This document shows positions 2,471 through 52,421 of a stretch of 52,421 nt of DNA, one piece after another. The translations under genes and the position numbers were made by a program. Every line of letters starts with the position of its first letter. The stretch's first letter is position 1. Source of the stretch: a virus; the IMG/VR virus record IMGVR_UViG_3300025891_000058, positions 1-52,421 of that record. One strand, 5' to 3'. Below the pieces are notes generated by a model that was given only the letters and a program-made list of their open reading frames with translations, made no database searches and was not told where the DNA came from.

Positions 2471-2483
2471 AACTTAAATTTTG

Positions 2484-2556
2484 AGCCGGAAACAGGAATC
2501 GAACCCGTGACATTCTGAGTACAAAACAGACACTCTACCATCTGAGTTATTCCGGC
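2484..2556 (-). tRNA. tRNA-Thr (anticodon TGT)
   Basis: A complete cloverleaf of 73 nt. The acceptor stem GCCGGAA pairs with TTCCGGC, the D stem is ACTC/GAGT, the anticodon loop TTTGTAC gives TGT with T33 and A37, and the T arm ACGGG-TTCGATT-CCTGT has one G-T pair. The lower anticodon pair is T-T. CCA is not encoded. It lies in the 5' leader of the terminase operon. Confidence 0.93.
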
Positions 2557-4409: not shown

Positions 4410-4411
4410 AA

Positions 4412-4440
4412 TTTCAGTTGTTTTTATCTCCCCGTACAGG
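4412..4440 (-). repeat. Leader repeat, copy b
   Basis: The first 25 bases match 45928-45952 exactly. The core here is CCGTACAGG, with C replacing T. It forms the leader immediately upstream of the ATG at 4409, just as copy c does for the gene at 45728-45925. Confidence 0.75.
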
Positions 4441-4447
4441 CATGGTG

Positions 4448-4561
4448 TTATTTTGCAAAGTTAATGAATAAATATGCTGCTATTACCGTAATAGTGGCGG
4501 TGTATATTATCGCATCGTAATACCAGGCAATTACGGTTAATATTTTGATTGTACGTTTCAT
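4448..4561 (-). CDS. Small single-pass membrane protein
   Basis: 37 residues starting MKRTIKILTV. Nearly the whole chain is hydrophobic after a basic N-terminus, giving one membrane segment. Its ATG overlaps the upstream stop as ATGA at 4558-4561, a mark of translational coupling and the main reason to accept such a short gene. Function unknown. Confidence 0.55.
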   Translation of the reverse strand: MKRTIKILTVIAWYYDAIIYTATITVIAAYLFINFAK

Positions 4562-25411: not shown

Positions 25412-25651
25412 CTAAATCAATCCTTCGTTTTTCTGAAAATCAGGATACAAAAGTTTGATTTCTTCAATTGTTTTGCGAGGATTAGAATCGGGAATTAACC
25501 CTTCAATCTCTTGTAGGTCTACATCAGTTAAAACATTTTCAGGAATGAGAAATTTACCATCTCCAAGCGGTTGTGGATCAATCGCGCTGTACTCTCCATG
25601 TTGTCCCCTGATCCTGTTTGCTGTTGTAGTGCTTATAATTATATGCTTCAT
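25412..25651 (-). CDS. Hypothetical protein after tail genes
   Basis: 79 residues, first strand KHIIISTTTANRIRGQ, then acidic loop and helix. ATGA-coupled to the 274-aa gene upstream, so probably works with it. No family recognised. Confidence 0.62.
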   Translation of the reverse strand: MKHIIISTTTANRIRGQHGEYSAIDPQPLGDGKFLIPENVLTDVDLQEIEGLIPDSNPRKTIEEIKLLYPDFQKNEGLI

Positions 25652-26472
25652 GCTATTACTCCTTTCCCGTTAGAATCCATGTAAGATTCAATTGCGTCAG
25701 TTGTAGCGTCAGATTGAGCCTTTGTCATCCCTTTTCCTGCAAACGCAATAGAAATTTGCCGGTTATTAAATAATGTTGGCGTTCCGCTTGTAGATCGGCA
25801 AAGAATAAACCATGTCAGATTAACAACCGCAGCTGAAGTAATTAACGACTCATTAAGTGCTATTTTATTACGATAATCAATATACTTACTACTTTCCAGT
25901 CGACTTACGATATGAGTACCCAACGACGAAGATACAGCAGTAGTGCCTCCTGGTCCCGTCTGACATCGAGATTGATTTGAGCCTGAGGAATTCATCCCAA
26001 TTGTTGCACCTGTAACCCCATCACTCACCCCTATATCGTTCGATGGTATAGGGGAGTCTGTGCGCGAATAAACCCCAAAAGAGCAATGATTCTGTTTGTA
26101 ATTACTGCCAATCGAGGCATTGTAGTTGCTATTTATATAACTACTTACCCCATTTCCAATGAATCCCTCCAAGGCGGTAAAGGCAGGTGAATTAACGGCA
26201 GTTGCATCCTGCGATCTTTTGGCAAGGTTCCTAAGTGAACTTTCAGATGTTTCATTAGCCAACACATAAAAGGTATCAAAAAAATCAGATAAATTAGTAA
26301 TGCCCAATCCTGTTTTGAGATCTTTAACCAACTTATCTATTTTCTTTTTCTGTGAAGTCGAAATTGGCGTTACCAGTCCCGAAACATACGCTTTCGTTTC
26401 AGGTTGATAGTTCAACAATGGCCCTACGCGACCCACTCCCTTTATCCCCGGTATTCCTAAAATTCCTGGCAT
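25648..26472 (-). CDS. Putative tail-appendage protein
   Basis: 274 residues. A Gly/Pro/Ile-rich start (PGILGIPGIKGVGRVGPLL) is followed by a helical part with LVKDLKTGLGI and a Ser/Gly/Asn-rich beta section rich in short repeats, as in phage fibres and tip proteins. It follows the SGNH receptor-binding candidate and has its own promoter. Function is inferred from composition and position. Confidence 0.6.
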   Translation of the reverse strand: MPGILGIPGIKGVGRVGPLLNYQPETKAYVSGLVTPISTSQKKKIDKLVKDLKTGLGITNLSDFFDTFYVLANETSESSLRNLAKRSQDATAVNSPAFTALEGFIGNGVSSYINSNYNASIGSNYKQNHCSFGVYSRTDSPIPSNDIGVSDGVTGATIGMNSSGSNQSRCQTGPGGTTAVSSSLGTHIVSRLESSKYIDYRNKIALNESLITSAAVVNLTWFILCRSTSGTPTLFNNRQISIAFAGKGMTKAQSDATTDAIESYMDSNGKGVIA

Positions 26473-26511
26473 GTTATGTAGGTTTTAATTTGACGTTTCA
26501 TGTTTTTATTT

Positions 26512-26543
26512 CAAAGTTAATAAATATAAATTACTTGCGCAAA
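26512..26543 (-). promoter_or_regulatory. Promoter of 274-aa tail gene
   Basis: Minus strand TTTG, 20-nt spacer, TAACTTTG. The -33 TTTG lies inside the 48-bp palindrome. Start near 26505, 33 nt before the ATG at 26472. Confidence 0.65.
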
Positions 26544-26579
26544 CTTGGATTATAATTATAATCCAAGTTTGCGCAAGTA
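26532..26579. repeat. 48-bp perfect palindrome
   Basis: The arm from TACTTGCGCAAACTTGG outward to the AT-rich centre is mirrored without any mismatch or loop; the centre lies between 26555 and 26556. It holds the stop codon of the 35-aa gene at its centre and the -33 box of the next promoter in its left arm. It may act as terminator, operator or both. Confidence 0.9.
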
Positions 26580-26663
26580 TATCAATGCCTTTTTCATTAT
26601 TTTCAATTCAAATTTATCTTGTGCTGACGCCATCATTTTGAGCATTTCAATTATTTTTTGCAT
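26556..26663 (-). CDS. Small helical protein ending in palindrome
   Basis: 35 residues, MQKIIEMLKMMASAQDKFEL, amphipathic and basic. The last nine codons, including the stop, are one arm of the 48-bp palindrome. It follows the SGNH gene by 19 nt. Real coding status is uncertain. Confidence 0.45.
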   Translation of the reverse strand: MQKIIEMLKMMASAQDKFELKIMKKALIYLRKLGL

Positions 26664-26682
26664 AATTTAGTTTTTATAATTA

Positions 26683-29046
26683 CTAAGCCAAACTTTTAAC
26701 TTTTGCAAAATATGCGTCTGCCGCCTGATCATATCCCGATTTTTCAGGGTGTACGCTATCCCAATGCGTTAACTGTGTTTCGGCACTTCTCGCAGAAATA
26801 GGAAGTAATTTATAAGGCATACCATAAACTCTGTCGATCCATTGCCCTGCATTACATGCGTAAACATTCGGATATAATGCATTACCATTAAACTCACTTT
26901 CGATTAATTTCCACAGATCAATCATATTCTTTCTGAACGTCACAAAACTTGTATTTCCGAAAAAGTGAACGCTCCATCCTGTTGCATCACATCCGCTTGC
27001 AGGATAACCAATGATTATTTTTGCAGTCGGATAATCAACTATAAACTGATCAATGAAGGTTTTAATTCCAGTAATCACAACGCTGGCAGCAGTTCCATTT
27101 TTAAGGTTGTTAATCCCTATCTGATAGATCATGTAATCGACACGATCAACAGCCCCTGCCTGTCCAATGATATTTGTCTGAACATATGATTTAAAATTGT
27201 TTTTTGTTCCATCCCAAAATGGGGAATGAGAATCTAAAAACCAAGTTGTGTCATATCCCGTCATCCCTGCGTGATAATAAGGAGGGTAGTTTTTTTTGTG
27301 TCCTAACATTAAAGGTGTAAATCCAGTATTTGCAGTGCATAAATCTGTGAATTCCTTTACTATTTCCGGACCTTCGTGTTCATAATAGGGTACTCCAGGA
27401 CTAATCATCGTAGCGTCGTCGATTGTTGAGTCACCAACGAAAAGAAATTGAAGTGTTCCTGTTCCTGCCGTCACACTAACCACATTAACAGTAATTATTT
27501 TTGATTCGGTAATTACATTTCCTTTGTCGTAAACATTCAATGTGACACTTTTTGCTCCGGTCGTTGCAAAATTCATTCTGATAGCACGGTTCATTGGCCT
27601 CACTTCACTTCCCGCGATTACCGCTTCAACTCTGTATCCTGAGTGTTCATAATCCAAAATAATATTATCCAACCAGAGATTAAATTCCTTCCCTGTACTT
27701 GCTTTAATCACATTAGGAACAGAAGATAAAAAGGTAGTTGCGATACCTTGCGTTGCGGTTGATATTGGCGCGTTCGGATAAGATACGGAACAGTTTATGA
27801 ATGTAGTAATAGCAACTCCCCTATAATCTGCCCACCCATTGACTGCGATACCTTTGTTTTTAAGATCAAAAACAAGGTCTGATTCGTAAATCGAATTATT
27901 AAGAGGATCGGATGCTAAATAAGTTACATCTGATTGTGTTAGTGATTTATTCCATTTGCGAAACATCTTAACATCAAGAGCTGTGTGTAATGCATTTCCG
28001 GTATAAGAGCCTACAAGTATTTTATCAGAGGCGGTAAGCGACATATAATTTGCCGTCCCGTTTAACGCAATTTTTTGCACTCCAACATACAGATCGTAAG
28101 ATGCTAAATTCCTGACTATTGTAATTAATACTTCTTTACCTGCAAAGGCGGTAATTAAGTGAGCGTACATAGCGCCAACGTTCTCTTTTGTTACCGTCAA
28201 CTTGCCATTATATAGGCTCATATATAGCGAATTTACTCCGCATGAGAACAGCGATTGATTTGCAGTTACATTAGTTGGCAGCTTAACAAGCATCTGAAAT
28301 GTTTCGTTCGCATCCCCTGATTTAACAGCATTTAAGCAATTAACCGTTAAAATAGACGTTGTGGTATTTGTTGATACTACGCTTTCGTTATCCGCCTTAA
28401 GGTAAATATCGCCAGCAATTACTTTTTTAACGTTATTTAAAGTGGCTCCCGAATCTGCATTTACATTTACAACAACATTTCCCATTGCATCATAAACCCT
28501 GAAATAATATAAATCAATGGCTGAAAATAATCCAGAACCAGTATAGCTCCCAATAAATAGCGTTGTATCTGCTAACGCGACAGGACTCGTTATCGGATTT
28601 GAATATTTCCATACATCATCAATATACGCCTCTACTGCGGTTGCGAGTTTTTTTATTGTGAGCTTTATTTTCTGTCCGGCATATGATGAAACATTAAAAC
28701 TCCCGATAGTTGCACCTATGTTCGAATAGTAAATAAACAGTGATCCAGTATTTATTGTCACCATTATTTTATTCCCATACGAAAATAACACTTGATTTGG
28801 TGCTGTGTCAGTAGGCATTTTAAAGACCATTTCATAACTACCTAAATCGCTTCCGTTAATAGGCATTGCATTTGGGAATGAAACAAATGAATCTGATCCA
28901 TTCAGCTTTAATACTGGATCTATTATTCTTAATGTTTCATTATATAATCCCAATGAGTTTTCGTTAAATGCCTGTTCAACCTCTAACCCCGTAGACCCTA
29001 CTATTCCTAAACTTGGGTCATCAGCTGCTATTTTTAAAATGTTCAT
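26683..29046 (-). CDS. Receptor-binding protein candidate with SGNH hydrolase domain
   Basis: 787 residues. After an N-terminal attachment region, two LamG/concanavalin-like beta-sandwich repeats follow (about 35-200 and 215-380, each with a ...FSCG/YG... IxLTIK... AYIDD pattern and SYTG turns). The C-terminal 260 residues are an SGNH/GDSL hydrolase: block I FLFVGDST with the nucleophile Ser and block V DSVHPEKSGYD with the catalytic Asp and His. Such domains deacetylate or de-esterify glycans. It likely binds and trims the host capsule or O-antigen at the tail tip. Confidence 0.85.
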   Translation of the reverse strand: MNILKIAADDPSLGIVGSTGLEVEQAFNENSLGLYNETLRIIDPVLKLNGSDSFVSFPNAMPINGSDLGSYEMVFKMPTDTAPNQVLFSYGNKIMVTINTGSLFIYYSNIGATIGSFNVSSYAGQKIKLTIKKLATAVEAYIDDVWKYSNPITSPVALADTTLFIGSYTGSGLFSAIDLYYFRVYDAMGNVVVNVNADSGATLNNVKKVIAGDIYLKADNESVVSTNTTTSILTVNCLNAVKSGDANETFQMLVKLPTNVTANQSLFSCGVNSLYMSLYNGKLTVTKENVGAMYAHLITAFAGKEVLITIVRNLASYDLYVGVQKIALNGTANYMSLTASDKILVGSYTGNALHTALDVKMFRKWNKSLTQSDVTYLASDPLNNSIYESDLVFDLKNKGIAVNGWADYRGVAITTFINCSVSYPNAPISTATQGIATTFLSSVPNVIKASTGKEFNLWLDNIILDYEHSGYRVEAVIAGSEVRPMNRAIRMNFATTGAKSVTLNVYDKGNVITESKIITVNVVSVTAGTGTLQFLFVGDSTIDDATMISPGVPYYEHEGPEIVKEFTDLCTANTGFTPLMLGHKKNYPPYYHAGMTGYDTTWFLDSHSPFWDGTKNNFKSYVQTNIIGQAGAVDRVDYMIYQIGINNLKNGTAASVVITGIKTFIDQFIVDYPTAKIIIGYPASGCDATGWSVHFFGNTSFVTFRKNMIDLWKLIESEFNGNALYPNVYACNAGQWIDRVYGMPYKLLPISARSAETQLTHWDSVHPEKSGYDQAADAYFAKVKSLA

Positions 29047-29071
29047 ATTTAATTATATTTAGATAATCGAT

Positions 29072-29079
29072 CAAAGTTA
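29072..29079 (-). promoter_or_regulatory. Possible -7 box before receptor-binding gene
   Basis: Minus strand TAACTTTG, matching TAnnTTTG, 25 nt before the ATG at 29046 in the only sizeable gap of the tail-tip block. No -33 TTG seen. Confidence 0.4.
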
Positions 29080-29098
29080 TTCATTAATTCCATATTAT

Positions 29099-31777
29099 TT
29101 AAACTATTTTTAGTGCTGCATTCGCACCGGATCCGTCACGGTATATCGTTCCAGAACCCAATCCAGTAGGAGATGTAGGCATTGAGGACATCACACGCAA
29201 TATCGAATCAATATAAATCGTATTGAGTTGTCCGTTAAACCCCATCATTGATTCGCCTTTGCCGTTGAAAATCATAAGCGTTCTGAATCTGGTAGTACCG
29301 CCTTGATATCCAATTCGATTAATGCATACATATCCACCGTCGTCCGTATCTTCAGTTGTTTCCCATATATCGTTACCGTCAATCGATATTCCTCCCCTAA
29401 AAACAGTGTTATAATGAGATATTACAGGATGGGTAAATGATACTCCGGCAGTTGCAGCCGTGAACAATAAATTAACCCCTGAGGATGTTAGTATTATATT
29501 ATCAGCTGCAAAAATACCCGCAAATAATGCAACGTAATCTATGGCCGTTTGTGTAAGCCCAAGATAATTGTATGTAATAAATTCAATCGTTGGATTTACC
29601 CATATTTCGGCCTCTCCTGAATTTCCCGTTAACTCTATTTGATCAACTTGTGCAACTGCAACTGTTTTTGGATTTACTAAACTTGTAGTTCCAAAACTAC
29701 TGCCAATTAATGTGCTACCTGAAAAATCAACTGCCGGGTCATTTGCAGTAAAAGTAAATTCAGTAGATGATATTTTTGTAAGCGTCACCGCTCCATATCC
29801 TGCCGAATTTGCAGTTATAAAATCAGTTATTGTAATATCTGTGCTTGTATTCCAAAATATACCGTGCGTATATCCGTTGCACTCAACCATCGAACTTCCA
29901 GTTGTTATAAAGATTGTCACTTTGTCAACTCGTGCGGATGCTACGACATTCGCCTGAACATTAGTAACTATTCCGTTTAAATTACCTGGACCAGATGAAA
30001 CGCCGTCAAGTTTATCAACTCTTAGGTTTTGAATAGTCGCGTATTCTGCAAGTAACACCTCTGTTGCTATACTATTATACTGAGCGTCGAAGGGTTTCCA
30101 ATATCGTGCATTTGTAGGCAAAATACCAGTAAATGACTCCGAAGGTGCATCTATTCTGGAAATATAATAAAGGACTCCTAAGTCCGGACTATCTGCAGGA
30201 ATATCATACTTTACTATGTCAATTCTTGAAAGATTACCAAAGTATTGTTTTGCTGGGTCATAAATACCCTGGTACATTGGAACCGTTTTGATCTTCTTTT
30301 GTTGGTTAGCCTTCATTGCTGCTAACCATGCCAATTCTTCGGATGACTTATCTACATTAACAATTTCATGCTGATTGCTTATTATCGCCTTATTTAGCTG
30401 CTCTGCATAAGTATAAGGTATTTTGTCAGATATTAATAGCTTTATCCTATTTGGATCAACTAATGGCCATTCAATGCCAGATATACGTATCAATGAATTA
30501 ATTCCAAGTCCTGCATCGATAACCGTTACCCGGTCGCCGCAATTAACCGTAATAGAGTTATCCTTTATATATTTCGGGTCAATATCAGCAGTGTAAACAA
30601 CCTGAGGTACTGAGTTTTCATCTAATGCCTCTTGGGTTTTATTTTGTAATATCAACTCGTTATCATCAATATATGTCTGAGGCTGGCTAATTCCTGTCAG
30701 TGTATAGCTATCGCCGATCATTGGAATTATAGGAAAACCACCGTTATATTTTGGCAGTGTGGCACCATTTTCACGAGTTACCGGATTAAAGTAAATCCTA
30801 TGGTTTGCATTATCGTACTTCCAAATTTCAAACCCCGGTTCTATCCCGCCTAAATCACCGTCTTTAAACACTATTAGGTGTGTTTGACCATCTATAATAT
30901 AGTCATTAATATCGAAATTAAGAGTCGTATCTTCAACCCAGCTTGTTTGATTTTTAAATGTTTCATCTGTATTGAATTCGATATTTACGTCTGTCAAATA
31001 TCCTGTACGCTGTGGGAAAATAGTCTCATCTGTAAAATCACCTTCGATAACTCCGTAAATAGAAACGTTCTTTTCAAGATACAATCCATCAAAAACAAGC
31101 TGCTTTGTTCCACCCCTGTATGATTCCTGAATATTGGTAGTACCGCCAAATCCGTACATACGGGTAATTATATTCTTATCTTGTACCTGTTCACGCCTTA
31201 ATTTATAAAGTCCGTTATTTTGCCCGTATTCGAACGTAATGGCAGTATTAACTCCTATTGACTTTTTAAGATTTAAAACTTTCGCAGTAAAATCATATTC
31301 AAGACCGAATACCTGCGCTACCTGGGATAATGCACCAATACAGTAAGCACTTGAAAAATTGATAGTTTTATAAACTGTTACATCAATATCTCCTAATGTC
31401 CAACCCGGATCAATCTCATTAATATTTGCAATTATGGAGGTAGCGAATGAAAGAGCGTTACCATTCAATGGGAAATTAACCAACCCATCAGAACTCCTAA
31501 ACTTTTTCTTTCCCCAGCTTATTTCTGCTGATTCAAATGTGATATTATAACTGATTGTCTTATCGTTAATCCGCTCGTAGGTTGGCATTCTATTGATATA
31601 GAAATTTAAACTATTAATAGTAATGTAGTCGCCAATTTGCACCCCAATATCATTTTCAGCAAAAAACTCAGTAGTTATTGAATTGCCAGACATTAATTTT
31701 TTGGAATACGTAGTCTTCTCGTCTATCGGGACTGTTGCAACTATTACTGAGGCTCTATATATCGTTAACTCTGTCAT
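29099..31777 (-). CDS. Tail-tip/hub protein (Tal-like)
   Basis: 892 residues. The first 400 (ending with YGFGGTTN and RTGYLTDVN segments) resemble the baseplate-hub domain of siphovirus tail-associated proteins. The middle holds an LDGVSS segment, and the C-terminal third is Thr/Gly/Ser-rich beta structure ending in an YIDSILRV strand. It overlaps the 173-aa gene by 1 nt. Likely closes the tail tube and carries the receptor-binding protein. Confidence 0.8.
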   Translation of the reverse strand: MTELTIYRASVIVATVPIDEKTTYSKKLMSGNSITTEFFAENDIGVQIGDYITINSLNFYINRMPTYERINDKTISYNITFESAEISWGKKKFRSSDGLVNFPLNGNALSFATSIIANINEIDPGWTLGDIDVTVYKTINFSSAYCIGALSQVAQVFGLEYDFTAKVLNLKKSIGVNTAITFEYGQNNGLYKLRREQVQDKNIITRMYGFGGTTNIQESYRGGTKQLVFDGLYLEKNVSIYGVIEGDFTDETIFPQRTGYLTDVNIEFNTDETFKNQTSWVEDTTLNFDINDYIIDGQTHLIVFKDGDLGGIEPGFEIWKYDNANHRIYFNPVTRENGATLPKYNGGFPIIPMIGDSYTLTGISQPQTYIDDNELILQNKTQEALDENSVPQVVYTADIDPKYIKDNSITVNCGDRVTVIDAGLGINSLIRISGIEWPLVDPNRIKLLISDKIPYTYAEQLNKAIISNQHEIVNVDKSSEELAWLAAMKANQQKKIKTVPMYQGIYDPAKQYFGNLSRIDIVKYDIPADSPDLGVLYYISRIDAPSESFTGILPTNARYWKPFDAQYNSIATEVLLAEYATIQNLRVDKLDGVSSGPGNLNGIVTNVQANVVASARVDKVTIFITTGSSMVECNGYTHGIFWNTSTDITITDFITANSAGYGAVTLTKISSTEFTFTANDPAVDFSGSTLIGSSFGTTSLVNPKTVAVAQVDQIELTGNSGEAEIWVNPTIEFITYNYLGLTQTAIDYVALFAGIFAADNIILTSSGVNLLFTAATAGVSFTHPVISHYNTVFRGGISIDGNDIWETTEDTDDGGYVCINRIGYQGGTTRFRTLMIFNGKGESMMGFNGQLNTIYIDSILRVMSSMPTSPTGLGSGTIYRDGSGANAALKIV

Positions 31778-45056: not shown

Positions 45057-45458
45057 TTAAACACTGCAATTAATGCTTTCTAAATAACGGCACACAGTTA
45101 AGTAATCGCCGAACTCGTCGTTTAAATAACCACCCCTTCGTTTATCTAATTCGATCCCTAAATAAACATATTGGACTCTCAATTGTCCCTTTCGTTCAGA
45201 ACATGGCGAATTTTTGTATTTTTTATCACTTGACAATTCATATTTTCTCCATCCAAACTCATACATATTTAAAGGAATATTTATTCTCCTATCCTCCGAA
45301 TCTTCCAAACTCTTTAAAACAATTTCGGTATCGGTGATTTTAATTAACTCTAATTTCATTCCAATATAAGAAGCATCGCCAGAATAACCATTAGGCGGGC
45401 ATACTCTGGTGACAATACTCCCCTTCTTTATTTTTTTAATGCTTAATATTTTAATCAT
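45057..45458 (-). CDS. Hypothetical protein
   Basis: 133 residues, basic, beta-rich (GSIVTRVCPPNGYSG, MKLELIKITDTEIVLKSL), suggesting a compact barrel. No family recognised. It overlaps the upstream gene by 4 nt. Confidence 0.65.
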   Translation of the reverse strand: MIKILSIKKIKKGSIVTRVCPPNGYSGDASYIGMKLELIKITDTEIVLKSLEDSEDRRINIPLNMYEFGWRKYELSSDKKYKNSPCSERKGQLRVQYVYLGIELDKRRGGYLNDEFGDYLTVCRYLESINCSV

Positions 45459-45709
45459 TTTTCTTGTTCTAAATGGTTAATAAAAAGTTCTATTTCAGTT
45501 TTTAATAATTTCATTTTGGTTATAAAGTCCGATATTGAATCTTCGTCTTTTTTATGAAGTTTAATGGAATATTTACAATCAGATATTTTAATAAAAACAT
45601 CCCTGTATGTTTTGTCTGAATATTTCACGTCTCCATCAAATGTAACTACGCTGCTGGTAGAAGAAGATTTTATATCGTTTAGCCAGATTCTTTTATTATA
45701 TTGATTCAT
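45455..45709 (-). CDS. Hypothetical protein
   Basis: 84 residues. SSSTSSVVTFDGDVKYSDKTYRDVFIKISDCKYSIKL is a beta meander, followed by an acidic helix. Function unknown. ATGA-coupled to the next gene. Confidence 0.62.
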   Translation of the reverse strand: MNQYNKRIWLNDIKSSSTSSVVTFDGDVKYSDKTYRDVFIKISDCKYSIKLHKKDEDSISDFITKMKLLKTEIELFINHLEQEK

Positions 45710-50558: not shown

Positions 50559-50870
50559 TCAACTTTGGTATTTAATCGGGTACAGCGCGATACTTCCGGC
50601 AGCGTTTAAAGTGATTGAAGCAACTGGAATGTCAAATATGATGCAGTCAATACCAGCTTTCATTGCCACATTCTGCCATGTTTTATTGGTTGTGGTGGTC
50701 CCGTCAACGTCGGTAATAGATGTCACCTGTGTGTCATCAATCCTACAAACTAGTCCATAAGCAGCGTGACCTGTTGCGAATACGTAAGGCGTTGCACCTG
50801 ATACAAAAATTGGTTCTGTGCCTAACATCATCTCCTGAAGTGTCGGCCATACTAAGTGTTCTCTTGCCAT
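50559..50870 (-). CDS. Small structural-like protein after portal
   Basis: 103 residues, hydrophobic and beta-rich (EPIFVSGATPYVFATGHAAYGLV, CIIFDIPVASITLNAAGSIALY). Such composition suggests a small virion component. It follows portal by 17 nt. Function not recognised. Confidence 0.66.
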   Translation of the reverse strand: MAREHLVWPTLQEMMLGTEPIFVSGATPYVFATGHAAYGLVCRIDDTQVTSITDVDGTTTTNKTWQNVAMKAGIDCIIFDIPVASITLNAAGSIALYPIKYQS

Positions 50871-50887: not shown

Positions 50888-52333
50888 TTATAATCCTGCG
50901 TTATTATTTTGATTATCAGTTAATATTCTGTCCATTTCTGCAACAGGATCAGAAACTAAAGGGTTTTTTTCTACACATGTTTCTGTTGACATTATGCCGC
51001 CAGTTTTTGCTACTGTCAGATTCTCGATCATTTCAGATATGTTAGCTGGCAAATAAGGTGTAATGATTGGTTTTAATGTGATTGTGGCCGCTTCTTTAGC
51101 CAGTGAAGTATCAATCAGCGCGCCTATTGCAGATTTGATGATATTAAGCCTTCTTTGCAATCCTATACCGAATGTCTCCTCTTCAACTCTGACTGCCATA
51201 TGTGCATCCAAAAACATGAGACGAAGCGCAACCCCAGAAACGTTTCCGATATCTTTCATGGCTTCGAATGATATATCAGGTGTTTGGGACATTGAATAAA
51301 TATACCGCTCGAGGTTTTCCTGCTCCAATTTAATACTTTGAGGTTCTGATGCCAGGTTAAGATAATTTGCAGTAGCTTCATTTTCAAGTTGCAAAAGCGT
51401 TCCTGTTTGGTTGTTCGTTTCAATGCTTGTCACCTTTCCGGCTACTGCAAGAATAGGCGCCCCAAACTTATCATTCATTCCTCCGTGATTGCTTGTAACC
51501 TCTTCGTGTCTGCCAATCATTGGCTGTTCGTCATTCCAAACTGGAACCGGTTGCCAGTAATACTCAATCAATAATTTTAAGGCTATGTTTGGTATTGGAT
51601 TCATAACCACTTCGACACCTGAAGCATTTAAGCCCGTTACTTCCTGGTCCAGTATCATTTTCCCGGCCACATCAACATATTTGTATTCAAACTCAGGCGT
51701 ATAGATGTCTGAATGTGCAATATCCTTTTCGCCATTGTTTAGCTTATAATCCCTTCGAAAACTTATCATATTCCCCACAGAATCAAACAAAGGGTAAAGC
51801 GTATCGCCAAGTTCAGGTGAAAGTATTTTACTGCTTAATGTGAACTTTTGCTTCGGGTCCCCGGTTGCGGTGTAATACCATATTACAGCTACTTCCATTT
51901 CTGACAACTTACGGCGGAGGATCTCTTTATTCTTATAGTCCATTTTATTGTCATTCTGAATCTTCTCGACCATCTTAACAAGGGTCTGCTCTTTTTCAGT
52001 AGGCTCACCATTAGCATAAATGGCCACGGTTTTAACCGGATCAGAAAGCATAAACCCCACACGCCGTTCTGTGATTATCTTTTGCCACGGGATGCCGACC
52101 CTAACAACTTCGACCATTACCTGAGTCTGAATTGGTTGACCGTCTGTATCTTTTCTTCCGGTATCGCGCCAAACTAACCGCTTAGGCCGTAAGGATTCAT
52201 CAAACACATCGTGACCCTCTACCTTGTATTGTTTCAGCGCTGTTTCCTGATCTACAATGAATTTAGGCCTTTTGAATAGCTTTTGTATCTGTTCATAATC
52301 CATCGATAATATTACTTCCTGCGGTGTTGCCAT
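50888..52333 (-). CDS. Portal protein (SPP1 gp6-like)
   Basis: 481 residues. GIPWQKIITERRVGFMLSDPVKT near 80 and the long helical/beta core with NHGGMNDKFGAPILAVAGK and ISFEAMKDIGNVSGVALRLMFLDAHM match SPP1-type portal proteins: a 12-subunit ring through which DNA enters and leaves the head. It starts 16 nt after the 75-aa gene and is read from the terminase promoter across the assembly junction. Confidence 0.92.
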   Translation of the reverse strand: MATPQEVILSMDYEQIQKLFKRPKFIVDQETALKQYKVEGHDVFDESLRPKRLVWRDTGRKDTDGQPIQTQVMVEVVRVGIPWQKIITERRVGFMLSDPVKTVAIYANGEPTEKEQTLVKMVEKIQNDNKMDYKNKEILRRKLSEMEVAVIWYYTATGDPKQKFTLSSKILSPELGDTLYPLFDSVGNMISFRRDYKLNNGEKDIAHSDIYTPEFEYKYVDVAGKMILDQEVTGLNASGVEVVMNPIPNIALKLLIEYYWQPVPVWNDEQPMIGRHEEVTSNHGGMNDKFGAPILAVAGKVTSIETNNQTGTLLQLENEATANYLNLASEPQSIKLEQENLERYIYSMSQTPDISFEAMKDIGNVSGVALRLMFLDAHMAVRVEEETFGIGLQRRLNIIKSAIGALIDTSLAKEAATITLKPIITPYLPANISEMIENLTVAKTGGIMSTETCVEKNPLVSDPVAEMDRILTDNQNNNAGL

Positions 52334-52421
52334 GGTATTTATAATTTAATTACTTGAATTGACCACTTATCTTTCCGTTATTCCATTGGAGATAATCCGT
52401 TGCTTCGGAATTAATAAAATC
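52216..52421. repeat. Right copy of 206-bp terminal overlap
   Basis: Matches 1-206 with one mismatch at 52294. Marks closure of a molecule of about 52,215 bp. Confidence 0.95.
52350..52421 (-). CDS. 75-aa hypothetical protein, C-terminal fragment (duplicate)
   Basis: The last 23 codons and stop of the gene at 135-362, cut by the window edge. Same gene seen twice because of the terminal overlap. Confidence 0.85.
   Translation of the reverse strand, partial: DFINSEATDYLQWNNGKISGQFK

Follow-up and report, generated by a model that had tools for sequence, protein, structure and literature searches.

The 48-bp perfect palindrome at 26532–26579 of this phage genome appears to lie on a mosaic joint, next to a short promoter whose own sequence is conserved but whose upstream genes are not. 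This is the most informative new fact to come from the analysis of the window (the whole stretch of 52,421 nt). Judging from the relatives compared, the palindrome does not seem to be a conserved regulatory site. The reading that we favor, at a probability somewhat under one half (∼0.45), is that it represents an inverted duplication that formed at or near the recombination joint and today gives a passive RNA hairpin with, at best, weak terminator activity. Because the palindrome is private to this phage, a conserved regulatory switch seems less likely than a trace of the joining event or a hairpin brought in by it.

The palindrome, TACTTGCGCAAACTTGGATTATAATTATAATCCAAGTTTGCGCAAGTA, is its own reverse complement and consists of two 24-bp arms with neither loop nor mismatch, exactly as the sequence-only reading had described it; as a feature it has no strand of its own. 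It is genuine and far beyond chance. The second-longest perfect palindrome in the window measures 16 bp, about 1.2e-9 perfect palindromes of 48 bp are expected in the window, and in 100 simulated genomes (first-order Markov, with the dinucleotide statistics of the window) the longest arm ranged from 6 to 12 bp. Perfect hairpins in ∼2 Mb of related or Bacteroidota phage DNA reach at most 17 pairs, compared with 24 here. The middle of the dyad is occupied by a 12-bp palindrome, TTATAATTATAA, and each arm contains TTGCGCAA. Transcribed from the minus strand, the palindrome is predicted to form a stem of 22 bp closed by a loop of 4 nt (centroid −34.1 kcal/mol, z −8.8). Neither the arm nor TTGCGCAA occurs anywhere else in the genome, and no near copy of the arm was found across 2.3 Mb of fetched sequence. 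Searches of viral_contigs with the exact 23-nt arm and of annotated phages with the DNA of the site returned no match. An Rfam scan, in which a tRNA alone reached threshold, revealed no known RNA element at the palindrome.

The protein-coding genes of the window are on the minus strand, and a best-hit comparison of all of them separates two ancestries. The block at 1883–26472 (small terminase, replication, ERF recombinase, and lysis) matches lineage B (G045, G047, G048, G049, G053, and G056–G058) with up to 97% amino acid identity. The block at 29099–52333 (portal, capsid, tape measure, and tail), which runs through the end overlap described below into TerL (391–1893), matches together with TerL lineage A (G004/L007/L108, L005/G002, and others) at 34–69%. 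The matches to both lineages are uncultured phages. A few cargo genes cross over between the blocks, namely two B genes at 45057–45709, a small gene at 50559–50870, and two early genes. The pair at 45057–45709 (minus strand) corresponds to two genes next to the lysozyme in the lineage B genome G045 (88 and 60% identity) and is embedded in the structural block of lineage A.

The ends of the window overlap by 206 bp (1–206 and 52216–52421) with one mismatch (79 versus 52294), and therefore the genome is circularly permuted or terminally redundant, near complete, and about 52.2 kb long. The mismatch in the overlap is a polymorphism, and the database classes the record as linear. At the second lineage boundary, a tRNA-Thr (TGT; 2483–2556, minus strand) adjoins the small-terminase gene and overlaps a predicted 67-aa ORF (2434–2637).

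Along the direction of transcription, the palindrome is preceded by a 787-aa gene and a 35-aa ORF and followed by the promoter, a 274-aa gene, and the lysis block. The 787-aa gene (26683–29046, minus strand) is the last large one of the structural block. Its product resembles lactococcal phage baseplate/receptor-binding proteins weakly and in its C-terminal part only (26%), and it has no relative in Pfam, PHROG, viral_contigs, genome_contigs, or PDB. The 35-aa ORF (26556–26663, minus strand) ends in the palindrome, as the sequence-only reading had noted: the first-transcribed arm is made up of its final seven codons and stop, which places the stop codon within the upstream arm of the hairpin, at the hairpin tip. 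Its codon use is coding-like (0.12 log units per codon, a score above that of 85% of off-frame open slices and below that of 80% of real gene slices), which is no more than suggestive. A degenerate search with the C terminus of this ORF gave six matches, which we judged to be due to chance, as the ORFs are unrelated and the dyad is absent. Apart from the lactococcal similarity, neither gene has relatives in any collection searched. The 274-aa gene (25648–26472, minus strand) opens the lysis block, which includes a glycosyl hydrolase 108 lysozyme, and is of lineage B (48% to G049/G053). The 274-, 892-, and 787-aa proteins led to no relatives in viral_contigs; close relatives were reached through the lysozyme gene and then through the promoter core.

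When the site is compared with these relatives, DNA homology to the lineage B phage L134 extends as far as 26527, which leaves 4 bp up to the palindrome. Together with the gene-by-gene split between lineages, this end point appears to place the palindrome in the gap between the two ancestries, on the B side. Since the 787- and 35-aa genes are orphans, the exact breakpoint is confined to 26528–29099, and at this resolution the palindrome falls on the boundary. L134/G045 shares the promoter and the beginning of the 274-aa gene but has another gene upstream, which ends with a stop codon about 10 nt ahead of the shared block; L142/G047 carries the same promoter before another gene. Neither has the dyad. 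Relatives with both genes but no dyad would have told against the earlier proposal, and those found go half of this way, the downstream gene being kept and the upstream gene differing in each of them. A check for compensatory changes at the dyad found no relative with either the dyad or the upstream genes. That relatives retain the promoter and the downstream gene in the absence of the dyad speaks against two earlier suggestions, namely that so long a perfect dyad is rarely tolerated without selection and that it serves as operator for the next transcript.

The promoter directly downstream of the dyad is very probably real, because sites of this type are intergenic and its core is found exactly in other viral contigs. 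The 24-nt core TATTTATTAACTTTGAAATAAAAA (26503–26526, minus strand) contains the −7 box TAACTTTG (26519–26512) and is identical in 11 other viral contigs, where its copies precede lysis-block genes or follow a gene ending in ADMKQLVNQTL; genome_contigs gave no match. On the minus strand of the window, all four sites of the form TTTG-N17-22-TAnnTTTG are intergenic, although intergenic DNA makes up only 8% of the window, whereas the single plus-strand site lies in a gene. By itself, TAnnTTTG occurs 37 times on each strand, and 14 of these sites are intergenic on the minus strand versus 1 on the plus strand.

The upstream element of this promoter fares differently. As the sequence-only reading had stated, TTTG-N20-TAACTTTG is present directly after the dyad, with the TTTG of the proposed −33 box (26540–26543, minus strand) in the palindrome; the core proved to be conserved, but the TTTG at this spacing is private to this phage. 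None of the 13 core sites in the 11 other viral records has a dyad, and none has TTTG at N20, the tetramer there being TCTG, TTTA, TGAT, TAAT, TGGT, AACT, or TCGT. The dyad and the “−33 box” are therefore no conserved part of the promoter. Bacteroidota sigma-A promoters possess TTTG near −33 and TAnnTTTG at −7 (PMC7366714, PMC9723704). The site agrees with them in its intergenic −7 box, which recurs verbatim in relatives, and differs in that a TTTG at the spacing of the window is found in this phage only. The lack of TTTG at N20 in the relatives agrees with Flavobacterium johnsoniae, for which no −33 motif could be identified (PMC7366714).

The verbatim copies of the core in the 11 viral contigs (L143–L153) occupy at least two genomic positions with unrelated neighboring genes, and the core is a candidate for a mobile or strongly constrained late promoter. 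A second copy with five mismatches, TATTCATTAACTTTGCAAAATAAC, is found at 4470 (minus strand) in the intergenic region 4410–4557.

An inverted duplication could have arisen here as follows. A foreign structural block would have been joined to a B-type promoter. A strand end reading through the end of the 35-aa ORF may have folded back at the central TTATAATTATAA and served as its own template over about 24 nt before it was joined upstream of the promoter, which would yield a perfect inverted duplication. The −33-like TTTG would be a chance product of this duplication. At present, the receptor-binding transcript would carry a very stable hairpin at its 3′ end, acting mainly as a 3′-end stabilizer or weak terminator. 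The loopless, perfect arms suggest a young duplication. The genome encodes both an ERF-type annealing protein and a NinB/Orf-like mediator, machinery of the kind linked to mosaic exchange. Inverted repeats are established sites of mutation by template switching (PMC7202029). The palindrome resembles such copy-back or template-switch duplications in being perfect, short, spacerless, restricted to one lineage, and positioned on a joint. It differs in that a parent sequence is lacking, so that the event itself is deduced; no parent molecule with a single arm turned up in viral_contigs, in the 2.3 Mb of fetched DNA, or among annotated phages. Two further points weigh against a duplication. The 787- and 35-aa genes lack relatives and may simply have brought the hairpin along; moreover, the usual intergenic hairpin in these phages looks like a terminator.

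The main rival, which we regard as possible and somewhat less probable than a duplication at the joint, is an intrinsic terminator of the receptor-binding transcript that was carried by the donor, imported with the 787- and 35-aa genes, and now separates them from the lysis promoter. The hairpin is placed as in intrinsic terminators at operon ends, just past the last gene of one block and before the promoter of the next, and is stable (−34 kcal/mol, z −8.8). A pattern scan lists it as terminator-like. The window and related phages contain 49 perfect stems of 10 bp or more, of which 37 are intergenic, although noncoding DNA makes up only 14%. Likewise, inverted repeats near gene ends in Escherichia coli mostly belong to terminators (PMC6060812).

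However, the sequence following the stem (ATTTATATTTATTAA) is a poor T-tract. The d'Aubenton-type score is −10.8 (−21.6 on the other strand) and nT is 2.15, whereas the canonical terminator of the phage itself (21963–21989, minus strand), which shows a compensatory T-A to C-G change in B relatives, scores +10.0 with an nT of 3.96. The stop codon lies inside the hairpin, and translating ribosomes in E. coli repress a terminator almost completely when it follows a stop codon by a few nucleotides (PMC4824070). Furthermore, the mismatch-free stem of 22–24 bp is far longer than any other hairpin found, and the hairpin is absent at the equivalent place in B relatives. Inverted repeats with arms of at least 13 bp are scarce in E. 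coli (PMC6060812). The earlier terminator claim thus holds for the position and stability of the hairpin and fails for its T-poor tail, and because of this tail and the in-stem stop codon we argue for weak or conditional termination. Because the receptor-binding unit is an orphan, a scar and a donor terminator are inseparable here.

Around the canonical terminator, the region 22058–21950 (minus strand) contains a promoter-like TTTG-N18-TTAATTTTG directly after a 218-aa gene, and this strong terminator (21989–21963) comes within about 70 nt of it, with no ORF of 60 aa between them. The region is 79–81% conserved in G045, G047, and G053 and is a candidate small RNA.

The remaining explanations are all improbable. 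In one, a dimeric protein would bind the dyad, or the dyad would extrude as a cruciform, and thereby control the overlapping promoter. The TTTG at N20 from the −7 box does fall in the dyad, and each arm contains TTGCGCAA. However, relatives do not keep the dyad with the promoter, as the 13 other core sites demonstrate, and no regulator gene was recognized among the proteins scanned, which are a subset of all. A multicopy operator was rejected, as the arm and TTGCGCAA are confined to this single site in the genome. The combined terminator and operator under selection that had been proposed is only partly supported.

Slightly less probable still is an attenuator coupled to translation, in which ribosomes on the 35-aa ORF would cover the first arm and allow read-through into the lysis genes, and the hairpin would stop transcription when the ORF is untranslated. 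The stop codon at the hairpin tip, the coding-like codon use, and measurements in E. coli showing that ribosomes repress terminators close to stop codons (PMC4824070) fit such a device, but the T-tract is poor, a separate promoter follows directly downstream, and conservation of the ORF was not found. Equally doubtful is an extension of this idea, a module-exchange cassette in which the 35-aa leader and the hairpin attenuator would insulate an acquired receptor-binding block from the conserved lysis promoter of the recipient.

Even less credit is due to an assembly artefact or a chimera joined through the palindrome. The window is a metagenomic contig, the palindrome sits on the boundary between two lineages, and no close relative carries it. 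However, a fold-back would produce a long inverted copy, not one of 48 bp whose flanks are unrelated. At the second joint, TerS and TerL overlap normally, and a chimera would have to combine several independent misjoins into a coherent phage. Misassembly is unlikely because the contig closes on itself (206-bp end overlap, one mismatch), its gene set looks complete and nonredundant, and the mosaicism is reciprocal, with B genes (45057–45709) embedded in the A block.

A telomere-resolution site of a linear plasmid-prophage is the least probable of all: the palindrome resembles N15/PY54-type protelomerase sites, which are perfect palindromes of 40–60 bp between genes, in length, perfection, and intergenic position, but the ResT/TelK family (PF16684) is unmatched in this genome, the largest nonstructural protein is a primase-helicase, and the site was rejected as a protelomerase target.

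The window thus appears to catch a mosaic joint of two phage lineages near a fibre/receptor-binding gene, with a short conserved promoter as the fixed point and differing genes upstream of it. If the palindrome is a copy-back scar, it would record how mosaic joints form. If it is a terminator, it would show how an exchanged module is kept insulated from the transcription unit that follows. If the improbable cassette were true, fibre modules would be swappable upstream of a fixed promoter, with the timing of lysis undisturbed.
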